Positions 7,627 to 20,341 of a DNA stretch of 21,148 bases are shown here, in pieces. This DNA comes from a virus: positions 1 through 21,148 of IMG/VR virus record IMGVR_UViG_3300046513_000362; one strand, written 5' to 3'. The position numbers and the translations under genes were made by a program. A model generated the notes under the pieces. It did not search any database. It was not told where the DNA came from and saw only the letters and a list, made by a program, of their open reading frames with translations. The stretch's first letter is position 1. Every line of letters starts with the position of its first letter.

Positions 7627-9354
7627 TTACCCCAAATATCCAAGCCGCACGCGTAAAACGTTGTTCGCGTCGTAAACCGACACGTTCAGCGAATTGATCA
7701 CCAACCGCCCCTGTCCCGGGACAATGCCGTTGATCTCCAGCGTTCCATCCTTGTTGAGAATCCAACCCTGCTGACCGGCGATGTAGTTGGTGGAGCTGAT
7801 GTAGCTGCCAATCTTCGCATTGGTGATGGTGCCGTCCGCGATGAACGCCGAGTTCATGAACACTTGCCCGCCTTGCACCGCGAACGGCACCGAGATGGCG
7901 CCACCGGCGATGGTGTTGACGATGGCGAAGCGATCAGCGCTGACCAGGAACTGGCTTTGCAGACCGGCGCCGGTGTTCTCGATGCCGAGACCTATGCCCG
8001 CGGCGATGTATTGGCCTCCCGCAGTGACCTGCATCTTCACCGACCACATCGTCGTCAATTTGCCGTTGGTGTCCGCGAATGCGGTTGAGGTTTCCTGAAT
8101 CGCGGCGGTGTTTTGCCCGACCTTCACGTTGACCTGGGTGAGTGCCGTCGCAGTGGCTTCCTTGTCCGTGGCCACGGTTTTTCGCAGGTCTGTGACATTG
8201 GCTTCGTTTTCGCCCACCTGAGACGTCAATGTCGTGATCTTCTGCGCGGTGGCGAGGTTTTCCGACGCTCTGACCTTCTCCTCACTGGCGATGGCGGCCG
8301 TGCTACTCCAGCCCTTTAAGGCATCCGCGACCGCCCCCTCGCCGCCATCATCACGGGATGCGGCACGCAACGCCTGAAAGGCAGTGGCTTGGGCAGTAAC
8401 TACGCCATCGATCTCCGTAATGTCGGCGGTATTGGTGGCGACCTGTTGAGCCAGCCCATTCGCCGTCTCGATCGTTTGCCCCACATCCAACCAATAGGCG
8501 GCGTTCGGCGGTGATGTGTTGATGGGTACCGCGCTTGTGGCTTGATAGATCCGATTGCCAACCACCACAAGATCGTATTCCTCGTAGGTGGCGTCCGGGT
8601 CGTACCCCGCAAGCCCGTCGAGCGCATCAATCTGCGTCTGAAGGCCTGGGATCTTGTCGATCTCATCCAGCAGGTCCTGGCCAAGTTCCGTGCGACCGAT
8701 TTCACCGGCGATCATTTCCAGAATCGCGGCGGCGTCGGAGCTCGACTGGCCCTGCACCCCCATCCCGATCGGGTACCAAGGGCCGATGCTCCCGATCCGA
8801 TCCACCAAGCGCGCCCAGAAATAGAGCGTCACGCCGGCACGCAGCCCCAGCATCGAGAAATCGCTTTGAGGGTATGACAGGTCGGTCAACTTGGTGGCCG
8901 CGTCCAAACTGGTCGTCGGCCCGTACCAGATTTCCGTGCGCTGGGTATCTTCGGCACCAGCCGGAAACCCCCATTTCAGATAAATACCGAACAGCAGAGG
9001 CGTGGCCGTCAGGAACGACACCGCCGGCGGCAGACCTTGTTTACCCTTGAGGTTGGTCAGTATCGAAGCGCGCCAGATCGACGAGATGTCGAAGGCGCTC
9101 ACGGCACGGATGCGGGCCACGTAAGCACCGGCATAGATGCCCACCACGTCGACACTGGTCATCCCAGTGCGCTGCAGCTTGATCCAGTTGCCGCTGTCCT
9201 TGCGCCACTCGACGTCATACCCGACCGCGCCGTTCACCGCCGGCCAAGCGATGGTCATGGTGGCGACGGCAATGCCCTGGGATACGACCGAGTTCGATGT
9301 GACCGTGACGCTCGCCGGCGCAGGAACGACGGTGATCGGAATCACGCTGATCGG
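7627..9354 (-). pseudogene. C-terminal part of a gpJ-type tail-tip/host-specificity protein, 5' end deleted
   Basis: About 575 residues remain of a protein that is usually about 1,100-1,200 long. From its broken N-terminus there are fibronectin-III-like repeats (MTIAWPAVNGAVGYDVEWRK; AYVARIRAVSAFDISSIWRA), a YEEYDLVVVGNRIYQA segment like a carbohydrate-binding domain, and a long alternating coiled region (VATNTADITEIDG; KTVATDKEATATALTQVNVK). It ends in a DUF1983-like domain (FAIVNTIAGG; AFIADGTITNAKIGSYI) as in lambda gpJ. Upstream of residue ~PISVIPITVV the open frame runs into antisense of the coiled-coil gene, so there is no natural start. It is a relic of the deleted tail module. Confidence 0.85.
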
Positions 9355-9358
9355 CCGC
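9350..9358. other. Deletion junction joining the two prophage arms
   Basis: Left of this point the minus strand encodes tail-tip protein; right of it the plus strand encodes the coiled-coil C-terminus. Neither gene has its start. Both frames stay open across the junction by chance, giving long chimeric frames. The junction is placed by where protein character changes, so it is uncertain by about 10 bases. Confidence 0.7.
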
Positions 9359-9838
9359 TCTGCCGTTGAACGCGAAGACGCTGCCGCCAAGCTACTGGCC
9401 CAGCAAAAAGAACTCGACGAGCTGCGCGAGAAGCAACGTATTTCCGACGCTGAGGCTGAGGTGTTGCGCAAACAACGCGCCGAGGAAGACCGCCTGCGTT
9501 TGAAGAAGCAGCAGGAGGATCTGGACCAGCAGCGCCACGACATCGAAGCGCAACAACGCCAGCAACGCGAACGCGACGCTCAGTATCAGCGGGACCAGGA
9601 AGAGCTGGCCCGTCTACGCGCCCAGGCGGCCGCACCCGCTGCAACGACTTCTGTAATTGCGCCAGCGATCACAGAGAAAGTCGAAGTCGCTCCTCTCGGC
9701 GAGCATGCGGCCGCTGCTGAGTCCGACGACGTGACCGTCGATGCACCACCGGTTGAAGACATTGTCGAGGTTGTAGCCCTGGGCTTCGACGTGGACCTCG
9801 ACACTGCTCGCGCCTGGCTTCACGCCATCCGCTTCTAA
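9356..9838 (+). pseudogene. C-terminal coiled-coil part of an early phage protein upstream of recT
   Basis: About 160 residues remain. It begins RSAVEREDAAAKLLAQQ, continues as a long charged coiled coil (about 70 residues of E/R/Q/L heptads), then an alanine-rich linker (LRAQAAAPAATTS) and an acidic C-terminal domain ending DLDTARAWLHAIRF. Proteins with this tail lie directly before RecT in many Pseudomonas and enterobacterial phages and probably act in recombination or nuclease inhibition. The N-terminal half is missing, cut at the deletion junction. An in-frame GTG near 9333 comes from the tail-tip antisense and could allow translation of the stump. Confidence 0.75.
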
Positions 9839-9891
9839 ACATCCTTTCCATCTGAAGGCCGACCTTCCTCTTGTCGGCCACGGAGAGCGCA

Positions 9892-10881
9892 ATGACCGAT
9901 TCAGACACCCAAGCACAAACCGGCCTCGCCACGTACCACGATCCATCGCACAACGCAGCAGCGCTCATCCTCGACCCCGGCACCATGAAGTCGATGAGTG
10001 ACCTCGCGCTGATGATGTCGAAGGGTGTGACAACAGTCCCCAAGCACCTGAAGGGCAATCAAGCTGACTGTATGGCGGTAGTGCTACAAGCAATGCAGTG
10101 GCAGATGAACCCCTTCGCTGTTGCGCAGAAGACGTTCATCGTCAACGGCGGTGCATTGAGCTATGAGGCGCAGCTCGTCAACGCGGTGATCACCGCCAAG
10201 GCACCAGTCAAGGGCCGCTTGAATTTCGAGTGGTTCGGTAGCTGGGAAAACGTCATCGGGAAGATGCGCGAAGTCATCAGCAAGACCAAGAAGGACGAGG
10301 ACACTGGCGAGTTCAAGAAGTACCGTGTTCCGGGCTGGAGCTTTGACGACGAGAAAGGTCTCGGGATCAAGGTTTGGGCGACCTTCAAGGGCGAAGACGA
10401 GCCTCGCGTTCTGGAGCTTCTGCTCACCCAAGTCCGCACCCGGAACTCTACGCTTTGGGCGGAAGACCCCAAGCAGCAGATTGCCTACCTGGTGACAAAA
10501 AAATGGGCGCGACTCTTCTGCCCGGACGTCATCCTCGGCGTCTATACGCCCGACGAGTTCGAAGACTCGTACGGCGGCGAAATCGATGTCACCCCTTTGA
10601 AGCAGGCTGCGAACACTGCCGCCTCTTCCAGCGTGTCGTTCGGCCCGAAATCCCCGTCGCCGGAAATCGACGGAGTATTCGCAGACCTTTTGGCCGTCGC
10701 GAAGCAGCAGGACATCGAAGCTTATGCAGCAGCTTGGGCAGGTCTCAAGCCGAAGCAGCGCGCAGCAATCGGCCTGGAGTGCCATGAAGCGCTCAAGGCC
10801 ATGGCGGCAACTGTTGATGGCGACTTCACCTACATAACTGGCACCCACGACGACCTGTCTCAGGCCGAGGAAGCAGCGTAG
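9892..10881 (+). CDS. recT: RecT-family single-strand annealing protein
   Basis: A 329-residue recombinase that anneals complementary single strands during phage recombination, working with the exonuclease encoded next. The RecT core is clear: DCMAVVLQAMQWQMNPFAVAQ (about 60-80), GGALSYEAQLVNAVI, then LLLTQVRTRNSTLWAEDPKQQ and YLVTKKWARLFCPDVILGVYTPDE. The C-terminal ~90 residues are a less conserved acidic tail. ATG 9892 is chosen because GGAG stands 6 bases before it; an in-frame TTG at 9871 lacks a site. Its stop overlaps the GTG of the exonuclease (TAGTG), which shows translational coupling. Confidence 0.93.
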   Translation: MTDSDTQAQTGLATYHDPSHNAAALILDPGTMKSMSDLALMMSKGVTTVPKHLKGNQADCMAVVLQAMQWQMNPFAVAQKTFIVNGGALSYEAQLVNAVITAKAPVKGRLNFEWFGSWENVIGKMREVISKTKKDEDTGEFKKYRVPGWSFDDEKGLGIKVWATFKGEDEPRVLELLLTQVRTRNSTLWAEDPKQQIAYLVTKKWARLFCPDVILGVYTPDEFEDSYGGEIDVTPLKQAANTAASSSVSFGPKSPSPEIDGVFADLLAVAKQQDIEAYAAAWAGLKPKQRAAIGLECHEALKAMAATVDGDFTYITGTHDDLSQAEEAA

Positions 10882-11543
10882 TGAGAACGGAACTTCAGGG
10901 CACTGAAAAGTGGCATGCAGACCGATCTGGCCGAGTGACAGCCAGCCGGTTTAAAGACGTGATCGCCTGGGGGAAGCCAGACAAAAATGGGAAGCGCGAG
11001 CCTATGGGGGCTCGTACCTCATACATGCGTGAACTGTGCTTTGAGCGACTGGCGAAGAAGTCCAAGCACAACGTCAGCAGCGCTTCCATGAAGTGGGGTC
11101 ACACCGAAGAACAGAAGGCCCAGGACGCCTACGAGATGCTGACCGGCAACATCGTCATACCGTCAGAGTTCATCGTCCACCCGAAGTACGACTGGCTCGG
11201 CTGTTCACCAGACGGCCTCATCAATGATGACGGGGGCACCGAGTCGAAGTGCCCTTTCAACGAGGCGATTCACGTCAGGACCTGGCTCGAAGGTATGCCC
11301 GAGGAACACGTGCCACAGGTCCAGGGCTGCATGTTCGTCACGGGACGGAAATGGTGGGACTTTCTGTCGTTCGATTCTCGTCAGGATGAAGAGTGTCAGC
11401 TCTACATCGAAACCATTTACCGCGACGAAGACTACATCGCCAACCTTCACATAGAGCTGGTCCAGTTCAACCTGGAGCTGAATCGCATGGTGGATGAAGT
11501 CGCGGACAAGGCCAGGGCGCAGGCCCATCGCCTAGGAGCTTGA
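10881..11543 (+). CDS. YqaJ-type viral recombinase exonuclease
   Basis: A 220-residue PD-(D/E)XK nuclease, the RecE/lambda-Exo-like partner of RecT that would resect double-stranded ends 5' to 3'. It starts at GTG with WHADRSGRVTASRFKDVI, the classic YqaJ N-terminal motif. An MKWGHTEEQKAQDAYE segment carries the first catalytic glutamate. The core is WLGCSPDGLINDDGGTESKC (D, then E-x-K), followed by HVPQVQGCMFVTGRKWWDF, which supplies the conserved QxQ-like region. Operon with recT and the small gene at 11546. Confidence 0.92.
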   Translation: MRTELQGTEKWHADRSGRVTASRFKDVIAWGKPDKNGKREPMGARTSYMRELCFERLAKKSKHNVSSASMKWGHTEEQKAQDAYEMLTGNIVIPSEFIVHPKYDWLGCSPDGLINDDGGTESKCPFNEAIHVRTWLEGMPEEHVPQVQGCMFVTGRKWWDFLSFDSRQDEECQLYIETIYRDEDYIANLHIELVQFNLELNRMVDEVADKARAQAHRLGA

Positions 11544-12327: not shown

Positions 12328-12636
12328 ATGGCCAAGAGCAACGCGGAATTGCAGAAGGACAAGCGCGCCAAGGAGAAAGCCTTGCTCGACCGGATCGGCG
12401 CCGAGAAGCGCACGCTGATTGTGTCGAAAGCGCTCGCTGATGCACTTCAGGTGCTGGGTGATCGGCACGCCTTCGAGGAATGGCAGGAGACGGTGTCGAC
12501 GTTCCTGATCAACCTCGCCGCCGCGCCAGCGGAAGAATCTGCCCGCTTCGCCAGCATGTCGCGACCTGAAATCGTTGTTTCTGAAAAGTGGTCGCGACAG
12601 CTTGATAGGTTCGCAAAGACTGGTATCGAGCCTTAG
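12328..12636 (+). CDS. Small helical early protein of unknown function
   Basis: A 102-residue protein: a charged N-terminal helix (MAKSNAELQKDKRAKEKALL), then helical sequence with EWQETVSTFLINLAAAP, and a mixed C-terminus. The N-terminal arm and size resemble small DNA-binding or ribbon-helix-helix-like phage proteins, but no motif is decisive. ATG 12328 follows AAGAGGCAGGCC; an in-frame TTG at 12313 is less likely. Its TAG overlaps, tail to tail, the stop of the minus-strand membrane gene, which interrupts the early operon here. Confidence 0.65.
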   Translation: MAKSNAELQKDKRAKEKALLDRIGAEKRTLIVSKALADALQVLGDRHAFEEWQETVSTFLINLAAAPAEESARFASMSRPEIVVSEKWSRQLDRFAKTGIEP

Positions 12637-13298
12637 CTATCTTGGCGCTCTAACTTGATCATAAGCTCATAGAGCCTTGAGTACTCAGTCAGTGCTTCTT
12701 TTATTTCAACTTTGTAATTATCAGGCGTTGGACTTGTAGCGGCCTCTGCCGCCGCAATGCCTTGCACATCAAAGGCTATCGACGCCAAATCAAGCGGATC
12801 CAAAAACGGTTCAGAAACAAAAATTTTACTGGCTCTGTTTCTTCTAGCTATGTTTGCCAATTGAGCAGCAAGAAGAACTTTCACGCTGACAGTAATCTCA
12901 ACTTTAAGCTCGTTAAGACAATCATATTCTTTTACGAGATCTAACAGCTTCCAAAATTCATGGGCCCTTGGATCTACAGGGGAAGAACTTGCAAAGCCGC
13001 CACCATGCTTGAGGGCGAGCCCTAGAAAAACTCGCAGCATTTCAATTCGAGACTTATTCAAGCTCGCAATTGCTTTTAAAGCTTCCGCCTTTACCTCTTT
13101 CAGCTTGACAACATTCCCAGCAATTGAAATCTCCTGCACTTCTGGCGCATAGCCTATGACCATACCAAGCACCGCAAACGCCACAACAAATGCAGTGAAT
13201 TCAGTCCCTGAAAATTTACCCAAACCTAACAAGTAAAACGCTAAGTACGTAGCAACCCCAAATAGCAAAAAACCAAGTATCCCCAGAAAAACGCGCAT
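12633..13298 (-). CDS. Low-GC membrane-anchored protein inserted against the early operon
   Basis: A 221-residue protein with two transmembrane helices at the N-terminus (about 2-24, LGILGFLLFGVATYLAFYLL, and 32-50, AFVVAFAVLGMVIGY). A mostly helical soluble domain follows (ISIAGNVVKLKEVKAEALKA; then EFWKLLDLVKEYDCLNELKV and LLAAQLANIARRNRASKIFV). ATG 13298 is fixed by GGAGGGG upstream; longer in-frame starts run into the methyltransferase leader. It is on the opposite strand to all its neighbours, visibly AT-richer, and its stop overlaps the convergent gene by 4 bp. This is the pattern of a prophage 'moron' expressed from its own promoter. A role in superinfection exclusion or defence is a guess; the family is not recognised. 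Confidence 0.75.
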   Translation of the reverse strand: MRVFLGILGFLLFGVATYLAFYLLGLGKFSGTEFTAFVVAFAVLGMVIGYAPEVQEISIAGNVVKLKEVKAEALKAIASLNKSRIEMLRVFLGLALKHGGGFASSSPVDPRAHEFWKLLDLVKEYDCLNELKVEITVSVKVLLAAQLANIARRNRASKIFVSEPFLDPLDLASIAFDVQGIAAAEAATSPTPDNYKVEIKEALTEYSRLYELMIKLERQDS

Positions 13299-13343
13299 AA
13301 ATCCCCTCCGCAAAAAAGGGACTATACCTCCCGAGGATCCCCT

Positions 13344-15257
13344 ATGTCCGCACAACAGAAATTACCCCAGTTCATCCATGGCCAGCCAAGCATGGGCCTG
13401 CCGTTCGAAAAAGAACTGGTCGTGGACCTGTTCGCCGGGGGCGGCGGCGCCAGCACCGGCATTGCCCGGGCGTATCGCGAGCCGGACGTGGCGGTAAACC
13501 ACAACCCAATCGCCCTGGCCGTGCATCGCGCCAACCATCCGCAGACGGCGCACTATGTTGCCGACGTGTACGAGGTAGACCCGCGCGAAGCCACAGGCGG
13601 ACAGCCGGTGGCGATCATCTGGGCGTCACCTGATTGCCGTCATCACAGCAAGGCGAAAGGCGGTGCGCCGCGCGATCGCGGTGTTCGTGGGCTGGCATGG
13701 GTGGTAATTCGCTGGCTGTTCGTCACCAGGTCTCGCCTGCTCTTCCTCGAAAATGTTGAAGAGTTCTGCGACTGGGGCCCGATCGATGACGATGGCCAGC
13801 CAATCAAGGCCGAGCGCGGGCGCACGTTCAAGGCATTCATTACCGCGATCAGCACGGGGCTCGCCGCCGATCACCCGGACATGCCGGAGATCATGCAGGC
13901 CATCGGCGAGTTCGTACCGATGGACGCACTGGTGCGTGGCCTTGGCTACAACGTCGAATGGCGTGAGCGCATCGCGGCCAACGCCGGCACGCCGACCATT
14001 CGCAAGCGTCTCTACCTGGTAGCTCGCAGCGACGGCAAGCCGATCGTCTGGCCAGTGCCGAAGCGCCACAAGTTGCCGACCGCCAAACAGCAACCCTGGC
14101 GCACTGCCGCGGAGTGCATCGACTGGAGCAACTTGGGCCGCACGATCTTCCGCGCCAAGCCTATGGCTGTGAACACGATGCGCCGCGTGGCCAAGGGCTG
14201 TTGGAGGCATGTGCTGACCAGCGCGAAGCCGTTCATTGTCCCGATGCGCGGCACGTCAGAATCGCACACCAGCACTCACGGCGTGGATGGAGCCTTATCG
14301 ACCATCAGCGCCGGCGGCACGCATCACGCACTGGTGCAGCCGGTAGCGGCGCCATTCCTCACCGAGTGCGCCAACGGCTCATCTCAACGGAACTTCAGTG
14401 CGGTCGAGCCTTTGCGTACACAGGTTGCACAGGTCAAGGGCGGCCACTTCGCCTTGGCTGCCTGCCACCTGACCCACCTCACCCATCACGGAGAACGCAG
14501 CGGCTACTCTCCCGATGATCCCTTCCGGACAGTAACTGGCGCCAACCGAGGCGAGCAGGCGCTTGTCGCCGCGAACATGGTCACCCTGCGGAAAGGGTCG
14601 GTTGGGGCCGACGTTGCTGGCCCGCTCGGCGTAGTCGCCACCAGCACTGGACACCACGCCATATCGACGGCGTTCTTCGAGCAGGCGAACGGCGGCTTCT
14701 ACGACGGCGATGGCCGCGCCGCAGATTCACCACTTTCGACCATCTGCCAATCCGGCGCTAACCAGCGGCTGGTCAACGCCTACCTGGTGAAGTACTACGG
14801 GAACGAGAAGGACGGCATCTCGCTCACTGAGCCGATGCACACCCTGCCGACAAAGGACCGGGTTGCGCTGGTCGAGGTTGTTCAGGTGCCTGACACGCTG
14901 ACGCCTGAGCAGATGGAGGGCGCCCGCCGTTGCGCCGCATTCATGCACGAGCATCTGCCGGAGCATTTCAAAGACCCGGCCGGAATGGTCATGGTCGGCG
15001 GCTATGTGCTGGTCGACATCACCCTCCGCATGCTGCAGCCACCTGAGCTGAAGGCGGCGCAGGGCTTCGACAAGGGTTACATCATCGACCGCGGGTTGTT
15101 CGTCGACCCGGTAACCGGTGTCGAAGAATGGCGCGACATAAACAAAACGGACCAGGTTCGGCTGATCGGCAACAGTGTCTGTCCGGACGAAGCCGAAGCA
15201 CTGGTCGCCGCAAACGCCGCCGACATCATCGAGCTTTACCAGCGCCTAGCGGCCTGA
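13344..15257 (+). CDS. Phage C5-cytosine DNA methyltransferase
   Basis: A 637-residue AdoMet-dependent enzyme that would methylate cytosine at C5, probably to shield phage DNA from host restriction. Motif I is VVDLFAGGGGAS (about 26-37). The catalytic motif IV is ASPDCRHHSK, with C98 as nucleophile in an unusual PDC rather than PPCQ context. Motif VI is LENVEE (135-140), motif VIII is TIRKRLYLVA, and motif X is RLIGNSVCP near the end. A long middle section with TISAGGTHHALVQP-type repeats is the target recognition region. It is longer than bacterial Dcm, as is usual for phage versions. No restriction enzyme is adjacent, so it is an orphan. ATG 13344 has a GAGG site upstream. Confidence 0.9.
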   Translation: MSAQQKLPQFIHGQPSMGLPFEKELVVDLFAGGGGASTGIARAYREPDVAVNHNPIALAVHRANHPQTAHYVADVYEVDPREATGGQPVAIIWASPDCRHHSKAKGGAPRDRGVRGLAWVVIRWLFVTRSRLLFLENVEEFCDWGPIDDDGQPIKAERGRTFKAFITAISTGLAADHPDMPEIMQAIGEFVPMDALVRGLGYNVEWRERIAANAGTPTIRKRLYLVARSDGKPIVWPVPKRHKLPTAKQQPWRTAAECIDWSNLGRTIFRAKPMAVNTMRRVAKGCWRHVLTSAKPFIVPMRGTSESHTSTHGVDGALSTISAGGTHHALVQPVAAPFLTECANGSSQRNFSAVEPLRTQVAQVKGGHFALAACHLTHLTHHGERSGYSPDDPFRTVTGANRGEQALVAANMVTLRKGSVGADVAGPLGVVATSTGHHAISTAFFEQANGGFYDGDGRAADSPLSTICQSGANQRLVNAYLVKYYGNEKDGISLTEPMHTLPTKDRVALVEVVQVPDTLTPEQMEGARRCAAFMHEHLPEHFKDPAGMVMVGGYVLVDITLRMLQPPELKAAQGFDKGYIIDRGLFVDPVTGVEEWRDINKTDQVRLIGNSVCPDEAEALVAANAADIIELYQRLAA

Positions 15258-15494
15258 TTGAAGAGCCCATCTTTCGGTACCGCTCTGAATGAGTGGCGGA
15301 TAATGACCAACATCACGTTCAGCCTGAAGCCACGCCCTGGTTTGCTCGATATCGAAGTGATAGTTGTTCACCCGCTTAACCGCCAACACAGTGCCAGTGA
15401 TGTCGTATCGACTGCATTCCACGCAGTCGACTGATCTGCCGCCGTCTGCAAATGGCCACGTCTGGGCTAATGCCCCGCAAATGTAGCACTCCAT
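15246..15494 (-). CDS. Small zinc-ribbon protein, copy A
   Basis: An 82-residue protein with two CxxC knuckles, C3-x2-C6 and C24-x2-C27, followed by YDITGTVLAVKR and NYHFDIEQTRAWLQAER. It is a paralogue of the gene at 17110-17349: cysteine positions and the RxxxITGT and HFD(I/V)E-TR-W motifs coincide. The ATG at 15494 follows GGAGG closely; the GTG two codons earlier lies inside that site. It is antisense to the early operon and overlaps the methyltransferase stop by 12 bp. It probably binds zinc; its function is unknown. Similar small proteins recur in Pseudomonas genomes (from memory). Confidence 0.75.
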   Translation of the reverse strand: MECYICGALAQTWPFADGGRSVDCVECSRYDITGTVLAVKRVNNYHFDIEQTRAWLQAERDVGHYPPLIQSGTERWALQSGR

Positions 15495-15595
15495 ATTCAC
15501 CTCCGTTTTGCTGATCGCTGAACTGTAGCTGATCCCTCACCACCCTCCACCGCCCGGGCATGACCCGGCATAGGACGCCCCATGCCCACAGAAAA
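15494..15595. repeat. Duplicated cassette flank, copy A (offset 1855 from copy B)
   Basis: From the zinc-ribbon start codon through a GCCCGGGC block (15552-15559) to the start of the next plus-strand gene (ATGCCCACAGA at 15582), each landmark has a diverged partner exactly 1855 bp downstream, at 17349, 17407 and 17437. CCGGG-CATGA-CCCGG (15554-15568) can form a hairpin just before the ribosome site. Confidence 0.7.
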
Positions 15596-16052
15596 CAAAA
15601 TTGCTGAGCCGCTTAAGGTCGAGCGCTCGACAGTGACGAAGCTGGTCATCACCGGCGCGCCGCGGCTTGACGCGATCACCGTGTTTCTCGAGGACTTCGG
15701 CCGCCGCGACTGCCCGATCGAATCCAACCCGAACTATCAGACCGCCCAAGGCAAGATCACCATCAACTGCTGGGACAACAGTTGGAACGCCTACTGGGGC
15801 GGCATGGGGCCGCGCACCGTCGCCGAGTTCGTCGCTGACTGCGGCTGGGACTACGTCCTGAATTGCTTGGATCGCGGCATCAGCCCCACCGTCTTCAGCG
15901 GCGACACGCTGAACGCCCTGGCCAAGAAGTGCATCGTCCAGCGCCGGCGCCAACAGACTGGGCGACACGACTGGGAACTAGGCGAGCTAGGCAAAGAGGA
16001 AGCTCGCGAGCTCTGGCAGGACATCGACGCGCTCCGCAGCATCGAGAGCTAA
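15582..16052 (+). CDS. Phage protein of unknown function (156 aa)
   Basis: A 156-residue soluble protein starting MPTENKIAEPLKVERS. A core with LVITGAPRLDAITVFLEDFG, then CWDNSWNAYWGGMGPRTVAE and YVLNCLDRGISPTVFSG suggests a compact alpha/beta domain. The C-terminus is a charged helix (EELGKEEAR-like, ALRSIES). An AGGA site precedes ATG 15582. The first five residues MPTEN recur in the truncated gene at 17073 and, decayed, at 17437. The frame after its stop stays open to 16223, so the original gene may have been longer. No named family recognised. Confidence 0.75.
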   Translation: MPTENKIAEPLKVERSTVTKLVITGAPRLDAITVFLEDFGRRDCPIESNPNYQTAQGKITINCWDNSWNAYWGGMGPRTVAEFVADCGWDYVLNCLDRGISPTVFSGDTLNALAKKCIVQRRRQQTGRHDWELGELGKEEARELWQDIDALRSIES

Positions 16053-16223
16053 AGCGAATGCTGGCATCAAAGCGCGCTGCTGACCGAGTTGTTCGGTGAT
16101 GAATGGCAATACCCGCTCGACGGCAAGGCAGTCGAAGAGAACCACAAATTCACGTACCTGCGCCGCGTTGTCGAAGCGGTCCAGCAGGCGCTGCGTCAGG
16201 AACAGCAGCAGGTGGCAGCATGA
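16053..16223 (+). pseudogene. In-frame continuation or remnant of a small phage gene
   Basis: Directly after the TAA at 16050 the same frame is open for 56 codons, reading CWHQSALLTELFGDEWQYPL and then HKFTYLRRVVEAVQQALRQE. It looks like real protein, ends at a TGA overlapping the next ATG (ATGA at 16220), but has no ATG start. Either it uses a rare start, or a start has been lost, or it is the tail of the preceding gene cut by a stop mutation. Confidence 0.45.
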
Positions 16224-16558
16224 AGCGCATCTACCTCAGCGGGCCGATGTCCGGACTGCCCGAACTCAACTTCCCCGCCTTCGCCGCAATGACCGCCAAC
16301 CTGCGCACCGGCGGCCATGCCGTAACCAATCCAGCCGAGCTGAACCCTGACGGCGGTTTATGGAACGACTGCATGCGCCGCGACATCGCCGCCCTGATGG
16401 ACTGCGACACGGTGGCCACGCTCCCGGGCTGGGAGCATTCAAAGGGCGCCCGCCTCGAAGTGCTGATCGCTGAACGCCTCGGCATGACGGTGGTGAACGC
16501 CCATGATCTGGTATCGATGGAGATTGGAGGAACATCTGAGCAGTGCAAAGGCCATTAA
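16220..16558 (+). CDS. DUF4406-type nucleoside deoxyribosyltransferase-like protein
   Basis: A 112-residue protein of the DUF4406 family, a branch of the nucleoside 2-deoxyribosyltransferase/TIR-like fold. It opens with RIYLSGPMSGLPELNFPAF, the signature of the family, followed by LRTGGHAVTNPAEL and a later MDCDTVATLPGWEHSKGARL, where the WEHSKGA motif carries the usual active-site region. Such proteins are frequent in phages and may alter nucleotide pools or NAD, but activity is unproven. ATG 16220 overlaps the previous TGA. The last residues (SEQCKGH) may be non-native, as the gene abuts a low-GC minus-strand insertion. Confidence 0.85.
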   Translation: MKRIYLSGPMSGLPELNFPAFAAMTANLRTGGHAVTNPAELNPDGGLWNDCMRRDIAALMDCDTVATLPGWEHSKGARLEVLIAERLGMTVVNAHDLVSMEIGGTSEQCKGH

Positions 16559-16567
16559 AACTGGCCG

Positions 16568-16954
16568 TCACTCAGACAAGCGTCGTATTTCCTCACGCGT
16601 GGGCATTGTCCAGTCCGACGCTCTTTTCTCATAGATTGATTGTTCTGGCTTTGTAGGCTCGTAACAAAAGGCTAAAAAATAGATAGCTAGTGACAATGCT
16701 GCAACACCTGCACGCGCGAGAGGATCCGCGTTTTTGGAGAGGCGTCCGCCAGGCGCAACTTGGATCGTTGTACCCCGAATATATGCAAACACTGCCTGAC
16801 CAAAAAACACCTGCAAAAAAAGCACGGTCCAAAAACTCTTCCAGTCACCTACGAATCGAGCAAATACATTCGTAAGCGAAGCGGTCGTCATCACTAGAAA
16901 TAACCAAAGCTTATAGCGCCTCAAAAACTCCATAGCTCTATTTTCCGACTTCAA
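16568..16954 (-). CDS. Low-GC membrane protein, antisense to the early operon
   Basis: A protein of about 129 residues with three likely hydrophobic segments: about 13-32 (WLFLVMTTASLTNVFARFV), 40-58 (TVLFLQVFFGQAVFAYI) and 83-97 (GVAALSLAIYFLAFC). A polar tail ends TREEIRRLSE. The start is uncertain: a TTG at 16954 has GGAGAA 6-7 bases upstream, an ATG at 16933 begins just before the first membrane segment, and a TTG at 17041 would add 29 residues. It is AT-rich, on the minus strand between plus-strand early genes, and its 5' end abuts the palindromic leader at 17036. Unknown function; probably a prophage cargo gene. Confidence 0.6.
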   Translation of the reverse strand: MKSENRAMEFLRRYKLWLFLVMTTASLTNVFARFVGDWKSFWTVLFLQVFFGQAVFAYIRGTTIQVAPGGRLSKNADPLARAGVAALSLAIYFLAFCYEPTKPEQSIYEKRASDWTMPTREEIRRLSE

Positions 16955-17035
16955 ATCGCTTTCTCCAATCAACGAACTCAGCGTATTCAGATATCGGCCA
17001 GAGTAAGCCGATCCTAAATCACGCGATCCCTCCCG

Positions 17036-17072
17036 CTTCAAAGTCAGCCGCTATAGCGGCAAGGAAGAAGAC
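17036..17072 (+). repeat. Palindromic leader, copy 1
   Basis: CTTCAAAGTCA followed by the perfect 14-bp palindrome GCCGCTATAGCGGC (17047-17060), then AAGGAAGAAG and ATG at 17073. Copy 3 at 17885 has the same layout with one palindrome change, offset exactly 849 bp. The hairpin abuts the ribosome binding site and may affect translation. Confidence 0.65.
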
Positions 17073-17150
17073 ATGCCCACAGAAAACCAGTTCCTAGATC
17101 CATTTGACCCTAAACGTCGATCAAACGAGCTGCCTGGTTCGAATCGATGA
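17073..17150 (+). pseudogene. Truncated 5' end of a plus-strand early gene (MPTENQ-)
   Basis: The leader palindrome and AAGGA site lead into ATG and only 25 codons (MPTENQFLDPFDP at the start) before a stop at 17148. Its last 41 bases overlap the 3' end of the minus-strand zinc-ribbon gene. The good ribosome site and the shared MPTEN start with the gene at 15582 suggest that an intact early gene was cut by arrival of the zinc-ribbon cassette. Confidence 0.55.
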
Positions 17151-17349
17151 TTGGAATCGCCCCAGTGCCTTGATGTTCTGAAAACCACTCCCGCGTTAAT
17201 TCCACGTCAAAGTGCCATTTATGGGCTTTCATCAGCACAAGCGCAGTACCAGTGATTCGATAGTACCCGCACTTCGGACAGCCTCTTTGCTGATAATCGA
17301 CACCAGCATCGACGATTGCCGCTGGCCCATAGCAAACCAAACAAGTCAT
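17110..17349 (-). CDS. Small zinc-ribbon protein, copy B
   Basis: A 79-residue paralogue of the gene at 15246-15494. It has C3-x2-C6 and C24-x2-C27 at identical positions, followed by YYRITGTALVLMKAHKWHFD and ELTREWFSEH. The C-terminus (GAIPIIDSNQAARLIDV) differs from copy A. The ATG at 17349 has GGGGGAG upstream. The start codons of the two copies are 1855 bp apart, matching the offset of their flanks, so gene plus flank was duplicated as a unit or arrived twice. Likely zinc binding; role unknown. Confidence 0.75.
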   Translation of the reverse strand: MTCLVCYGPAAIVDAGVDYQQRGCPKCGYYRITGTALVLMKAHKWHFDVELTREWFSEHQGTGAIPIIDSNQAARLIDV

Positions 17350-17450
17350 CGCTCTCCCCCTTTGGGCTAATGGCTCCGCTGTAAGAATTCCTCCCCGCTC
17401 TCACTCGCCCGGGCGAGACCTGGCGAAGTACGCTCTACGCCCACAGACAC
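17349..17450. repeat. Duplicated cassette flank, copy B
   Basis: Partner of 15494-15595. GCCCGGGC is at 17407-17414 and the CCCACAGA that follows the start codon in copy A is at 17440-17447, all with offset 1855. Divergence is substantial, so the duplication is old or the copies came from different phages. Confidence 0.65.
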
Positions 17451-17498
17451 AACACGGCCGAGCCGTTCCAGCGCGAAGACCGCTACGAAACTCCTCTC
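17437..17498 (+). pseudogene. Decayed start of a MPTEN-type gene
   Basis: At the position homologous to the ATG of the 15582 gene this copy has ACG, followed by CCCACAGACAC and then sequence that only loosely follows the paralogue (gccgagccg aligns with gctgagccg). No open frame survives. It is explained only as the dead right end of cassette copy B. Confidence 0.45.
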
Positions 17499-17532
17499 CT
17501 TCAAAGTCAGCCAAACGGCGGCACATCGAATG
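17499..17532 (+). repeat. Decayed palindromic leader, copy 2
   Basis: CTTCAAAGTCAGCC matches copy 1 exactly for 14 bases, but the palindrome is broken (AAACGGCGGC) and the following ATG-AAA-TGA cannot encode a protein. A minus-strand gene ends 11 bases further on. Confidence 0.5.
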
Positions 17533-17543
17533 AAATGAGAAGC

Positions 17544-17762
17544 TCAGATAGCAGGCGGGAGGTTGTTGGTATGAGCAATGATCGGGGCATTCATAAAGGC
17601 GTCCCAGCACTGATAGGCGTCGTGCTGCCTCTTAGTCGCAATTTCCCACTCGGGTCCCGAAACACAGCTGGATGACACAAGCATCATCATTCCCATGGTT
17701 GCGGCGTCCAGCTCTAAAAGGAGCTCGTGTGATTTCAATCTGAAGTCATCGATCGATGCCAT
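17544..17762 (-). CDS. Small protein of unknown function (72 aa)
   Basis: A 72-residue mainly helical protein: MASIDDFRLKSHELLLELDA, then a methionine-rich stretch (TMGMMMLVSSSCVSG), then EIATKRQHDAYQCWDAFMNA. Two cysteines, no clear signal or transmembrane helix. The ATG at 17762 follows a weak AGGG; an in-frame ATG at 17792 would add ten residues. It is one of several minus-strand genes set between decayed plus-strand gene starts. Unrecognised. Confidence 0.55.
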   Translation of the reverse strand: MASIDDFRLKSHELLLELDAATMGMMMLVSSSCVSGPEWEIATKRQHDAYQCWDAFMNAPIIAHTNNLPPAI

Positions 17763-17884
17763 GTCTGTGCCCTGGGCGGAGCACACCGCCATCGAGTAAC
17801 TGTTGTCACTCAGGCGGTTGAGTGCAACGTGAAGAGGTTAGTTCATACCCATTCGACCGTAGTTACGCCGACCCTCACCTCCTC

Positions 17885-17921
17885 CTTCAAAACAAGCCGC
17901 TATGGCGGCAAGGACGAAGTC
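17885..17921 (+). repeat. Palindromic leader, copy 3
   Basis: CTTCAAAACA, then GCCGCTATGGCGGC (17896-17909), AAGGACGAAG and ATG at 17922. The same layout as copy 1 at 17036, at a fixed offset of 849 bp. Here it precedes an intact gene. Confidence 0.65.
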
Positions 17922-18170
17922 ATGCCTGAAGAAAGCGAACAAAACCTACGGAAGCAGATCACCGCCTATATGAGCGGCGCGGGGGGCTCCCGGGACAACT
18001 GGTTCTGCACCTGGTGGTTTCGGTTCCATATCGAGCCGTTCACCACCAAGCAGGTCCGAAGAGAGCTGGAGTGCATGAAACATGACGGGCTCGTTGAGTC
18101 GGATCACAGCCAAAGCAATAACACCAAATGGCGGCTCACCAAATACAAGTCTGAAGGGGTGAAACCATGA
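17922..18170 (+). CDS. Small winged-helix-like DNA-binding protein
   Basis: An 82-residue protein: MPEESEQNLRKQITAYMSGA, a WFCTWWFRFHIEPFTTKQVR segment, and then the helix-turn-wing pattern VRRELECMKHDGLVESDHSQ followed by NNTKWRLTKY. This resembles a compact winged helix, as in small phage regulators. ATG 17922 is preceded by the palindromic leader and AAGGA; upstream in-frame starts would cover that leader. Its stop overlaps the ATG of the next micro-ORF, so it heads a short coupled operon. A regulatory role is inferred. Confidence 0.7.
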   Translation: MPEESEQNLRKQITAYMSGAGGSRDNWFCTWWFRFHIEPFTTKQVRRELECMKHDGLVESDHSQSNNTKWRLTKYKSEGVKP

Positions 18171-18220
18171 TCGCCCTCGCCTGGTTCGCCTACATGTACT
18201 GCTACAAGGGGCCGCGGTGA
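18167..18220 (+). CDS. Membrane microprotein (17 aa)
   Basis: MIALAWFAYMYCYKGPR, coupled by ATGA overlap to the gene before it and by GTGA overlap to the one after. It is hydrophobic with a basic end, so it may sit in the membrane. It is below normal annotation length; coupling on both sides is the main support. Confidence 0.4.
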   Translation: MIALAWFAYMYCYKGPR

Positions 18221-18297
18221 ATAGAAACCGCCTCATCAGCCACCGAATGAACCGGAAAGTAGTTCGACAACTGATGAGGCGCAAGCTCAAACAATAG
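18217..18297 (+). CDS. Very basic microprotein (26 aa)
   Basis: A GTG start with AAGGGG five bases upstream gives MNRNRLISHRMNRKVVRQLM and a basic KLKQ end: about ten R/K residues in 26. It contains an 11-bp perfect inverted repeat in its DNA, so the region may be selected as an RNA hairpin or protein site rather than as protein. Confidence 0.35.
   Translation: MNRNRLISHRMNRKVVRQLMRRKLKQ
18229..18281. repeat. Inverted repeat 1 (CGCCTCATCAG / CTGATGAGGCG)
   Basis: Perfect 11-bp arms at 18229-18239 and 18271-18281 with a 31-base spacer. The same half-site recurs with one base changed in inverted repeat 2. Confidence 0.6.
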
Positions 18298-18364
18298 CTC
18301 ACTTACTCAACTTGTCGTGGACGGAACCATGTCCGGGGCCGCGGCGATAGCCAAGAAGTGTCCC

Positions 18365-18413
18365 CCTCACCAGTCACTTCAGGGACGAGCTGATTGGGCT
18401 GCAACTGGTGAGG
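18365..18413. repeat. Inverted repeat 2 (CCTCACCAGT / ACTGGTGAGG)
   Basis: Perfect 10-bp arms at 18365-18374 and 18404-18413 with a 29-base spacer. It lies in the 225-bp gap 18298-18522, which holds no supported gene. Together with repeat 1 it may bind a regulator or shape mRNA ahead of the Cys-rich, xis and int genes. Confidence 0.6.
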
Positions 18414-18522
18414 TGAACGATTAAACGTTAGCCGACCTTCTCCGCTTTGTATGTTGCCCTTCATCTCATTTTTTCAACACTCATTTATCAGCTGCCGGTA
18501 AACGGCCGGCGAGGAATTCTGC

Positions 18523-18846
18523 ATGCGAAAAGTTATGCGATCGGTCGCAGATCCAGGCGCGGAACACGGCTTCCGAATCGAGCCTGCAACATATGAGCAG
18601 GCCGAAGAGGTTGCTGGGTTCCGGCTTGATCGACGGCGAAAATATTGGATCACCAAGGACGGCGAGGTCGAGGAAGAAGGTGTTGTGACGATGGCGTGTA
18701 GCGGGTGCAGCTGCGGATGTGAGGGTGGCTGCAGTTGCGGCCCGTCGTCCGGATGCAGCGAGTGCGGATACACGGGCAAACGGCGCTTCTACTTCGGTTA
18801 CCCCGCTCAATCCCCCGAGCAGCGAAAAGAACTTCACAGCCTTTAA
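18523..18846 (+). CDS. Cysteine-rich small protein of unknown function
   Basis: A 107-residue protein with a helical N-terminal half (PATYEQAEEVAGFRLDRRRK and WITKDGEVEEEG). A dense cysteine cluster, CSGCSCGCEGGCSCG then CSEC, holds nine cysteines in 24 residues with serine and glycine between them. A short basic/aromatic end (KRRFYFGYPAQSPEQRKEL) follows. The cluster could bind several metal ions or be disulphide-linked. ATG 18523 follows GAGGAATTCTGC. It lies directly before xis and int in the same direction, so it may be co-transcribed. No known family is recognised; the region is not a simple zinc ribbon. Confidence 0.65.
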   Translation: MRKVMRSVADPGAEHGFRIEPATYEQAEEVAGFRLDRRRKYWITKDGEVEEEGVVTMACSGCSCGCEGGCSCGPSSGCSECGYTGKRRFYFGYPAQSPEQRKELHSL

Positions 18847-18882: not shown

Positions 18883-19095
18883 ATGAAACGAGAACTGATC
18901 AAGATCAGTGAGTTCCAGCGCCGGCGCTGGGGCGAGAACGGCACCCCGCAATGCCCGCAGGCCATCCGTAACCACATCCGAAACGGCATGGTGCCCGGCG
19001 AGCAGATAGGAAAACTCTGGTACGTTGACTGGACAGCATTCAATCGCTCGGACGGCAACGATCTGGTGGCGATGGTATTGAAAGGAGCTGCATGA
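18883..19095 (+). CDS. xis: Excisionase (Xis)-like recombination directionality factor
   Basis: A 70-residue protein starting MKRELIKISEFQRRRWGENG, followed by QAIRNHIRNGMVPGEQIGKL and WYVDWTAF. This is the winged-helix plan of phage excisionases: a helix-turn-helix start, then a wing with GxxxGKxWYVD. It would bend the attachment-site DNA so the integrase favours excision. ATG 18883 has GGAG 7 bases upstream; an in-frame ATG at 18871 contains that site. The stop overlaps the integrase ATG, giving translational coupling of xis and int. Confidence 0.85.
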   Translation: MKRELIKISEFQRRRWGENGTPQCPQAIRNHIRNGMVPGEQIGKLWYVDWTAFNRSDGNDLVAMVLKGAA

Positions 19096-20207
19096 TGGTC
19101 CCACGGCCGCGCAACAAGGCGAACAAGAGCCTCCCGCAGAACCTTTATTTCGATTCGCGGCGCTCGACTTATCGCTACCGGCGGCCAACCGACGGGAAGT
19201 GGTTTCAGTTCGGAACCGATCGCATCAAAGCAATCGATGCAGCGAAGCAACTGAATCTGGAATTTATGCGCGGCGCTGACCTGATCGGCGCCGTGATGGG
19301 CAGCTCGTCAGAATCATTTGCCGGCTTCCTCAACACCTACGAACGCGACGTTTTGCCACCGCGCGAGCTCGCCAAAGGTACGCTGGGTCTTTACGCGGTG
19401 CACTTCCGGCGTTTCCGCAAGCAGTTCGAGGGCAAGGCCGTCGATCAGATCACCATTCGCATGGTCGCGGAGATGCTCGACGCGCTCACCCCGCGCACCG
19501 CGAACCAGTGCCGGGCGCTACTGATCGACATCTTCAATCACGCAGCGTCCAAAGGACTGTGCCCGGACAACCCGGCGGCCAGCACCATCAACCGGATCGA
19601 GAAGAAGCAGCGCAAACGCCATACGGTTGAAGGACTGAAAGCCATCCGGGAGAAGTCGCCGGCCTGGCTGCAGAACGCAATCGATTTGGCGTTGATCACC
19701 GCCCAGCGCCGGACAGACATCCTTGATATGCGTTTTGATGGCAGTCGGGAGGGTTACCTGTACGTGGTGCAGAAGAAGACGGCCAAGGCCAGTGACGCGG
19801 CATGGATACGATTTCTGATAACGCCGGAGTTACAGGCGGTCATCAGCCGATGCCGCGACGATGTCGTATCGCCCTACTTGGTGCACCGGAAGCCCGAGCG
19901 ACGGAAACAGAAACAGGCGCAGACCAAGGATCACTGGACAAAGGTTGAGGAGAGATATTTGACGCGAGCATTCAAGGAGGCCAGGGAGGCGGCGAACTGC
20001 TACGCGGAATGGAAGGAAGAAGAGATGCCGGGCTTCCACGAAGTGCGAGCGCTGTCGCTGCATCTGTACAAGAAAGCCGGAAAGGACGGTCAGAAAATTG
20101 CTGGCCATGCGAGCGAGGGCATGACCAGAAACTACCAGCGGGACCACGAGGAAATCGTCTGGTCCGAAGCAATTCCGGACCTGAATATCAGCGAAATCAC
20201 CGGGTAG
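19092..20207 (+). CDS. int: Lambda-type tyrosine integrase
   Basis: A 371-residue site-specific recombinase responsible for integrating this prophage at tRNA-Pro. The N-terminal arm-binding domain (PRPRNKANKSLPQNLYFDSR, then YRYRRPTDGKWFQFGTDR) resembles that of lambda Int. A core-binding domain follows at about 75-170. The catalytic set is complete: R206 (TAQRRTDILDMRF), K229, H316-x2-R319 (FHEVRAL), H339 (IAGHAS) and nucleophile Y348 (TRNYQR). It starts inside the xis stop (ATGATG at 19092) and ends one base before the phased TTTTGCGC repeats and 28 bp before the right att repeat. No truncation is seen, so it may be functional. Confidence 0.93.
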   Translation: MMVPRPRNKANKSLPQNLYFDSRRSTYRYRRPTDGKWFQFGTDRIKAIDAAKQLNLEFMRGADLIGAVMGSSSESFAGFLNTYERDVLPPRELAKGTLGLYAVHFRRFRKQFEGKAVDQITIRMVAEMLDALTPRTANQCRALLIDIFNHAASKGLCPDNPAASTINRIEKKQRKRHTVEGLKAIREKSPAWLQNAIDLALITAQRRTDILDMRFDGSREGYLYVVQKKTAKASDAAWIRFLITPELQAVISRCRDDVVSPYLVHRKPERRKQKQAQTKDHWTKVEERYLTRAFKEAREAANCYAEWKEEEMPGFHEVRALSLHLYKKAGKDGQKIAGHASEGMTRNYQRDHEEIVWSEAIPDLNISEITG

Positions 20208-20237
20208 TTTTGCGCCAGTTTTGCGCGGGTTTTGCGC
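20208..20237 (+). promoter_or_regulatory. Three phased TTTTGCGC repeats, candidate integrase arm sites
   Basis: TTTTGCGC occurs at 20208, 20219 and 20230, exactly 11 bp apart, between the integrase stop codon and the right core. The same octamer is in the left arm at 2044. One helical turn spacing is as expected for cooperative binding on one face of DNA. Confidence 0.5.
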
Positions 20238-20242
20238 AGACA

Positions 20243-20269
20243 CAAAAAAGCCGATCTGACTGATCGGCT
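20243..20269 (-). terminator. Rho-independent terminator, right copy
   Basis: The same AGCCGATC/GATCGGCT stem as at 1832-1852, with loop TGACT instead of TATGT, followed on the minus strand by six T. Confidence 0.8.
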
Positions 20270-20296
20270 TAACTGTCTGATTTTACTCAGGAAATA

Positions 20297-20341
20297 TGGT
20301 CGGGACGGAGTGATTCGAACACTCGACCCCTAGCACCCCAT
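20297..20341 (-). pseudogene. 3' fragment of tRNA-Pro(GGG), right att copy
   Basis: Identical to the left fragment from anticodon loop to CCA. The 5' half does not follow to the right; unrelated AT-rich sequence starts at 20342. Because neither copy is complete, the intact gene should lie beyond the second element, right of the window. Confidence 0.8.

Follow-up and report, generated by a model that had tools for sequence, protein, structure and literature searches.

The window analysed here is the whole of the IMG/VR virus record IMGVR_UViG_3300046513_000362, 21,148 nucleotides (nt) in length, in which an integrated element sits between two 110-nt repeats. Within the element, two small minus-strand genes encode zinc-ribbon proteins, and plus-strand early genes beside them start from two recurrent leaders, termed T1 and T2, in which a palindrome abuts a Shine–Dalgarno sequence, a start codon and the first codons. 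The features of the locus are as follows.

15246–15494, minus strand: zinc-ribbon gene 1, 82 amino acids (aa), Cx2C-x17-Cx2C, antisense and divergent from the gene at 15582; AlphaFold2 mean pLDDT (predicted local distance difference test) 90.2.
15521–15528, minus strand: −10-like element of zinc-ribbon gene 1, AACTGTAG on the plus strand (CTACAGTT on the minus strand), ~34 nt before the start.
15543–15599, plus strand: T1 leader, with the near-palindrome CCGGG-CATGA-CCCGG (15554–15568), Shine–Dalgarno AGGA (15572–15575), ATG at 15582 and protein start MPTEN.
15582–16052, plus strand: early gene started from T1, phrog_3451 (PHROG E=1.9e-25).
16568–16954, minus strand: antisense membrane-protein gene upstream of T2, guanine-plus-cytosine (GC) content ~0.47.
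17029–17085, plus strand: T2 leader joined to a T1-type start MPTEN, with palindrome GCCGCTATAGCGGC (17047–17060), AAGGA and ATG at 17073.
17073–17150, plus strand: remnant gene MPTENQFLDPFDPKRRS..., 25 codons, beside zinc-ribbon gene 2; it resembles the intact MPTENNQANPFCPNGR family (L089).
17110–17349, minus strand: zinc-ribbon gene 2, 79 aa; its relatives L008 and L009 are 95% identical.
17398–17450, plus strand: degenerate T1 leader and start of an MPTEN..EPFxREDRY gene remnant; hairpin kept with one G-U, AGGA changed to AGTA, ATG to ACG.
17499–17535, plus strand: T2 remnant (CTTCAAAGTCAGCC...), repeat family D9.
17544–17792, minus strand: antisense gene of 82 aa whose family occurs upstream of T2 at 11 sites; median ratio of nonsynonymous to synonymous substitution rates (dN/dS) 0.24.
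17878–17934, plus strand: second copy of the T2 leader, from the repeat search, with ATG at 17922.
17922–18170, plus strand: 82-aa early gene whose start lies in the second T2 leader, read from sequence.

The first-pass annotation had read the two zinc-ribbon genes as a gene-plus-flank unit, inserted or duplicated antisense to early genes. The geometry behind that reading was confirmed: exactly 1855 base pairs (bp) separate the zinc-ribbon starts (15494 and 17349), the GCCCGGGC block and the next plus-strand starts (15582 and 17437), and both proteins have the cysteine spacing C3-x2-C6-x17-C24-x2-C27. The gene at 17073 is indeed cut short, leaving a plus-strand remnant of 25 codons that ends at the 3' end of zinc-ribbon gene 2. 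The 'dead start' ascribed to the second copy is real (ACG at 17437 for ATG at 15582) but the start in question is that of the divergent plus-strand gene rather than of the zinc gene, and the same divergent gene has also lost its Shine–Dalgarno sequence (AGGA to AGTA). Self-comparison found the expected similarity outside the coding part, a direct repeat of 61 nt (15532–15592 and 17387–17447) that is 74% identical, contains GCCCGGGC and at its end covers the plus-strand start, with 45 of 61 positions matching against a maximum of 37 among shuffled sequences. Gapless identity at the 1855-bp offset was 0.74 in 15532–15592, 0.43 in the zinc coding sequence and 0.24–0.34 elsewhere. A stronger repeat had been overlooked (17029–17085 and 17878–17934, 81% over 57 nt), and this is the second leader type, T2.

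If a zinc gene had been duplicated in place together with its flank and the copies had then diverged, this would account for three landmarks at one exact offset and for a 61-nt repeat above chance. The two window proteins share 28% identity in alignment. In a 53-row tree, copy 1 groups with L005 (100/96) and copy 2 with L008, L012 and L013 (100/99); the copies are thus not each other's nearest relatives, and both have closer kin in other phages. Placement in separate supported clades rules out a simple in-place duplication. Other phage contigs that carry a pair of zinc genes (L008, L048, L054, L055 and L059) hold members from different clades, and the mixing in L008, L048, L055 and L059 again argues against duplication in place, as does the contrast between the 74% identity of the leader and the background identity of the zinc-side spacer and post-start codons. 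We consider duplication highly improbable. What stands of the earlier reading is an antisense unit that is present twice among early genes; its flank proved to be a widespread leader. Around zinc homologues, the flanks are as a rule unrelated on the 3' side of the zinc gene and beyond the leader, and the leader itself recurs. The repeated offset is explained by two mosaics that were assembled separately and share a conserved geometry (zinc start, spacer, divergent start). As a separate observation, two-zinc contigs look as if within-prophage diversity were maintained.

Among the listed upstream regions of 63 unique zinc genes, a common stretch, CCACCGCCCGGGCATGMCCCGGCATAGGACGCCCCATGCCCACAGAAAAC (T1), stands in front of many different divergent genes. 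Leader sites were gathered with a T1 pattern, whose scan of viral contigs returned at least 119 stretches, and from the surroundings of zinc genes; leader conservation is therefore in part due to this selection of sites, which does not affect the flank reassortment test likewise. T1 was sampled at 120 distinct sites in Pseudomonas phages and prophages; its coding start is ATG-CCC-ACA-GAA-AAC, and the genes downstream of it encode about ten protein families with no relation to one another. These loci contain T2, TTCAAAGTCAGCCGCTATAGCGGCAAGGACGAAGTCATGCC, almost as often (87 distinct sites). Of 20 phage records, 17 have a single T1 and none has more than three; in all 14 phage records that also hold an exact T2, T1 lies 0.5–2.0 kb upstream of it on the same strand.

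Clustering of 150 nt upstream and 200 nt downstream at the 120 distinct T1 sites yielded 59 upstream and 34 downstream clusters. Among 343 pairs of sites with like upstream flanks, 22 shared a downstream cluster, where permutation expects 22.1. By contrast, two control windows within the downstream gene gave 280 of 375 linked pairs (23 expected), and a pair of windows farther upstream gave 135 of 571 (35 expected). The T1 result was unchanged under stricter clustering thresholds. For the 87 T2 sites, 13 of 89 pairs were linked against 10.3 expected. Phages PP9W and H66 illustrate the pattern, with a near-identical zinc gene and spacer and different divergent genes. These results collectively show that flanks are exchanged freely at the T1 and T2 leaders.

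Such linkage equilibrium across the element, together with near-perfect palindromes and a fixed position near the integrase, might point to sites of a dedicated site-specific recombinase, with integron- or invertase-like cassette exchange. However, the leader sequence varies and unrelated hairpins replace it, the window shows no recognisable second recombinase, and most records have a single copy each of T1 and T2 rather than cassettes with two identical ends; we therefore regard this mechanism as quite unlikely.

Several observations suggest that the leaders may help to start translation. AGGA lies 6–7 nt before the ATG in both T1 and T2, and the stems CCGGG/CCCGG (T1) and GCCGC/GCGGC (T2) end 12–13 nt 5' of the start codon. 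Other stems (CCGGTTATCAACCGG, TCGGGCACGGCCCGA and GCCGAACATCGGC) occupy the same position with the same downstream tag. Among 42 tagged starts outside strict T1, 28 carry a hairpin versus 1.3 in shuffles; the majority are T2, and the excess of the non-T2 remainder over ordinary genes (46/373) is modest. Rfam covariance models gave no match to 14600–18600 up to E=5. A predicted RNA fold at 15556–15587 pairs GGGCAUG with the start region CAUGCCC and hides the start codon; it has no covariation support. We do not claim a start-codon-sequestering RNA switch in T1, as variants such as L008 break the pairing without compensation. Binding of RsmA/CsrA at T2 (CAAGGACG) was likewise set aside, since T2 variants do not retain the motif.

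T1 and T2 might be purely translational elements, with exchange occurring by illegitimate recombination sorted by selection and the leader being no seam. The conserved Shine–Dalgarno sequence and start fit this account, as do the other hairpins that replace that of T1 at equal distance from the start, and a set of mycobacteriophage repeats, the start-associated sequences (SAS), is likewise start-linked (PMC3203893). On the other side, identity across 45–60 bp is sufficient for annealing, and a T2/T1 hybrid at 17029–17085 puts a joint inside the leader. A purely translational role is possible, and we think it doubtful.

The divergent arrangement also invites a regulatory explanation, in which a zinc ribbon binds the palindrome GCCCGGGC and, besides autoregulating, controls the divergent early gene. 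Zinc ribbons often bind nucleic acids, and both the divergent geometry and the palindrome are conserved. Yet a zinc ribbon lies opposite T1 at only 17 of 121 sites (~14%), leaving ~86% of T1 sites without one and with many other antisense families in its place; zinc genes also adjoin T2, a third leader or no leader; and the palindrome is part of the sense gene's leader and does not adjoin the promoter-like element of the zinc gene. This makes a regulatory pair unlikely.

The zinc ribbons are one of many families of antisense open reading frames (ORFs) that begin upstream of the leaders. Directly upstream of each window leader lies one antisense gene (zinc-ribbon gene 1, the membrane-protein gene, zinc-ribbon gene 2 and the 82-aa gene, respectively). 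GC content upstream of T1 is below that downstream (0.535 vs 0.589, p=3e-10), with T2 similar, and dN/dS is well below 1 in most antisense families with usable pairs. Named antisense slot-mates include putAbiC (PF16872, 1.4e-12), PIN_12 (3.3e-28) and HNH (2e-9), and PADLOC matches among them include TIR-like (2e-6) and HEPN-like (3e-6) proteins. Small antisense genes of a second family, MTKHDIYDE... (L197:3408-3641 and L198:4355-4585, also L081 and L173), likewise recur upstream of T1 and have their own conserved leader around ATCGTAGCAC.

Zinc-ribbon relatives among the matches listed come only from Pseudomonas genomes, viral contigs and three Pseudomonas phage records; at least 27 loci are in Pseudomonas genomes (a collection of 84,980 species was scanned). 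Their dN/dS is mostly well below one (e.g., 0.03–0.3; above one in one close pair), indicating that the genes are coding and constrained by purifying selection. For the members checked, no Pfam or NCBIfam model scored above its curated cut-off, with weak generic zinc ribbons only; PHROGs and PADLOC gave weak matches only, the predicted fold had no Foldseek match at E<=0.001 in the PDB and viral models, and a sequence search of the PDB returned nothing significant. The sequence CTACA[GT]T occurs 31–37 nt 5' of the start in 29 of 62 unique zinc-gene upstream regions (shuffled mean 0.4) and would fit a promoter belonging to the zinc genes themselves. A zinc subfamily beginning MNCLICVG... (L025, L026, L030, L032, L034, L035 and L038–L043) is scattered over Pseudomonas chromosomes at sites that mostly have no relation to one another; in most members ~160 nt of the upstream DNA is conserved (ATACGACCTATTTGTACTGAAAGCGTCA...), and dN/dS is ~0.04–0.16; a fixed neighbour gene for this subfamily was rejected, its neighbours being mostly unrelated.

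Further features of the window are as follows.

1815–1924 and 20232–20341: flanking 110-nt repeats, mutual identity 95%.
9889–10881, plus strand: RecT-family annealase (Pfam RecT E=1.6e-37), a possible agent of exchange at the leaders.
10881–11543, plus strand: YqaJ exonuclease (Pfam E=3.6e-25).
16220–16558, plus strand: early gene, DUF4406/nucleoside deoxyribosyltransferase-like (Pfam E=2.2e-26).
19092–20207: integrase, from the domain search of the window.

Based on these findings, we propose, with a probability of about two in three, that the window holds an accessory-gene (moron) slot of a Pseudomonas prophage, in which the leaders are both translation-start modules and recombination seams. 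The slot would be built of divergent units, each comprising a small antisense gene, a conserved start leader and an early gene in sense orientation that reads towards the integrase. T1 and T2 would supply a ready-made translation start, and annealing by RecT/YqaJ across 45–60 bp may join flanks at the leaders; phage Red proteins efficiently recombine DNA that is 22% diverged (PMC2327257). Antisense arrivals upstream of a leader would bring their own promoter and start, as the CTACAGT element and Shine–Dalgarno sequences suggest, and could then be expressed in the lysogen independently of the early operon. The zinc ribbons would be one family among the slot genes, having arrived here at least twice, and each further use of the slot would have left remnants of the displaced gene. 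The second T1, lacking its Shine–Dalgarno sequence and start, and the remnants of two displaced sense genes indicate that the locus is partly decayed. Judging from the slot-mates, the most likely benefit of the slot would be lysogenic conversion, e.g., anti-phage defence or superinfection control, and the zinc ribbons may serve in either. More tentatively, T1 and T2 might form a two-anchor exchange system, with the leader as plug-in start and RecT annealing site, the slot as an anti-phage reservoir and the zinc ribbons as a new family in it; we hold this extended version to be possible, with the odds against it.

Several results weigh against the slot-and-seam interpretation. Energy folding of T1 favours the start-codon-pairing structure over the local hairpin, and T2 flanks are slightly linked at one stricter threshold (8/90 vs 2.8, P=0.009). 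A sigma-70 promoter for the zinc gene was rejected, since the −10-like element has no clear −35. Moreover, 17 of 49 phage-type zinc genes lack a recognisable leader, some listed antisense ORFs are shadow ORFs with dN/dS of 1 or more, and many slot genes carry no defence domain.

Elsewhere in the window, no head or terminase gene was recognised in the 18.4-kb element, and this, with its size, makes it look like a prophage that has lost a large internal segment. The N-terminal part of a tail-tip gene (7627–9543, minus strand) reads as antisense of the early region. An antisense membrane-protein ORF (12633–13304, minus strand) begins just 5' of a C5-methyltransferase start (13344) whose region, ATGTCCGCA, is similar to leader-type starts, making 12633–13344 a possible further divergent unit.

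Few seams in phage mosaicism have been quantified, and the usual explanations are illegitimate joints or shared boundary sequences. Here the two sides of a 45–60 bp leader are in linkage equilibrium and linkage is strong a few hundred bases off, which makes the seam idea directly testable by a recombination assay. If it is true, minus-strand accessory genes and plus-strand early genes are shuffled independently in temperate phages of Pseudomonas, a genus relevant to plant and human health. The leaders can also serve as an easy tag in searches for small antisense genes of prophages, of which some are defence-like and many have no known domain.

A literature search, with most subscription papers outside its scope, found no description of the T1/T2 arrangement or of this zinc family. 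The closest relatives of T1 and T2 are the SAS of cluster K mycobacteriophages and their extended form (ESAS). These repeats lie at the translation starts of some non-structural genes and have a Shine–Dalgarno core, ESAS adds an inverted repeat just upstream, and SAS are named as possible recombination targets (PMC3203893). T1 and T2 are likewise short repeats with a Shine–Dalgarno sequence a few nt before the start. By inspection, T1 GGCATAGGACGCC (15567–15579) differs from the SAS 13-mer GGGATAGGAGCCC at 3 of 13 positions, beyond the two deviations allowed for SAS, and T2 is unrelated. Two of the three T1 differences would keep a G-C pair across the Shine–Dalgarno loop; the resemblance may be chance. 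SAS number 11–19 per genome, where T1 and T2 are usually present once each; they find little support as mRNA hairpins whereas unrelated hairpins replace each other at the T1/T2 site, belong to phages of another host genus, and are described, in the text consulted, without the antisense accessory genes that accompany T1 and T2 (PMC3203893).

The slot genes resemble morons in being small, of lower GC content (0.535 vs 0.589), opposite in orientation to their neighbours both in the window and among homologues, equipped with their own start signals, and variable between related prophages, as in the patchy presence of the zinc gene (17 of 121 T1 sites); they differ from morons in adjoining one of two recurrent leaders. 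In lambdoid phages, boundary sequences are short common stretches at the borders between genes, at which unrelated genes replace one another. Those boundaries and Red-type homeologous recombination share with T1 and T2 the border segments and the joining of diverged DNA by annealing recombinases (PMC2327257 for recombination), whereas the T1/T2 segment spans a palindrome, a Shine–Dalgarno sequence and the first codons, with its two sides in linkage equilibrium.

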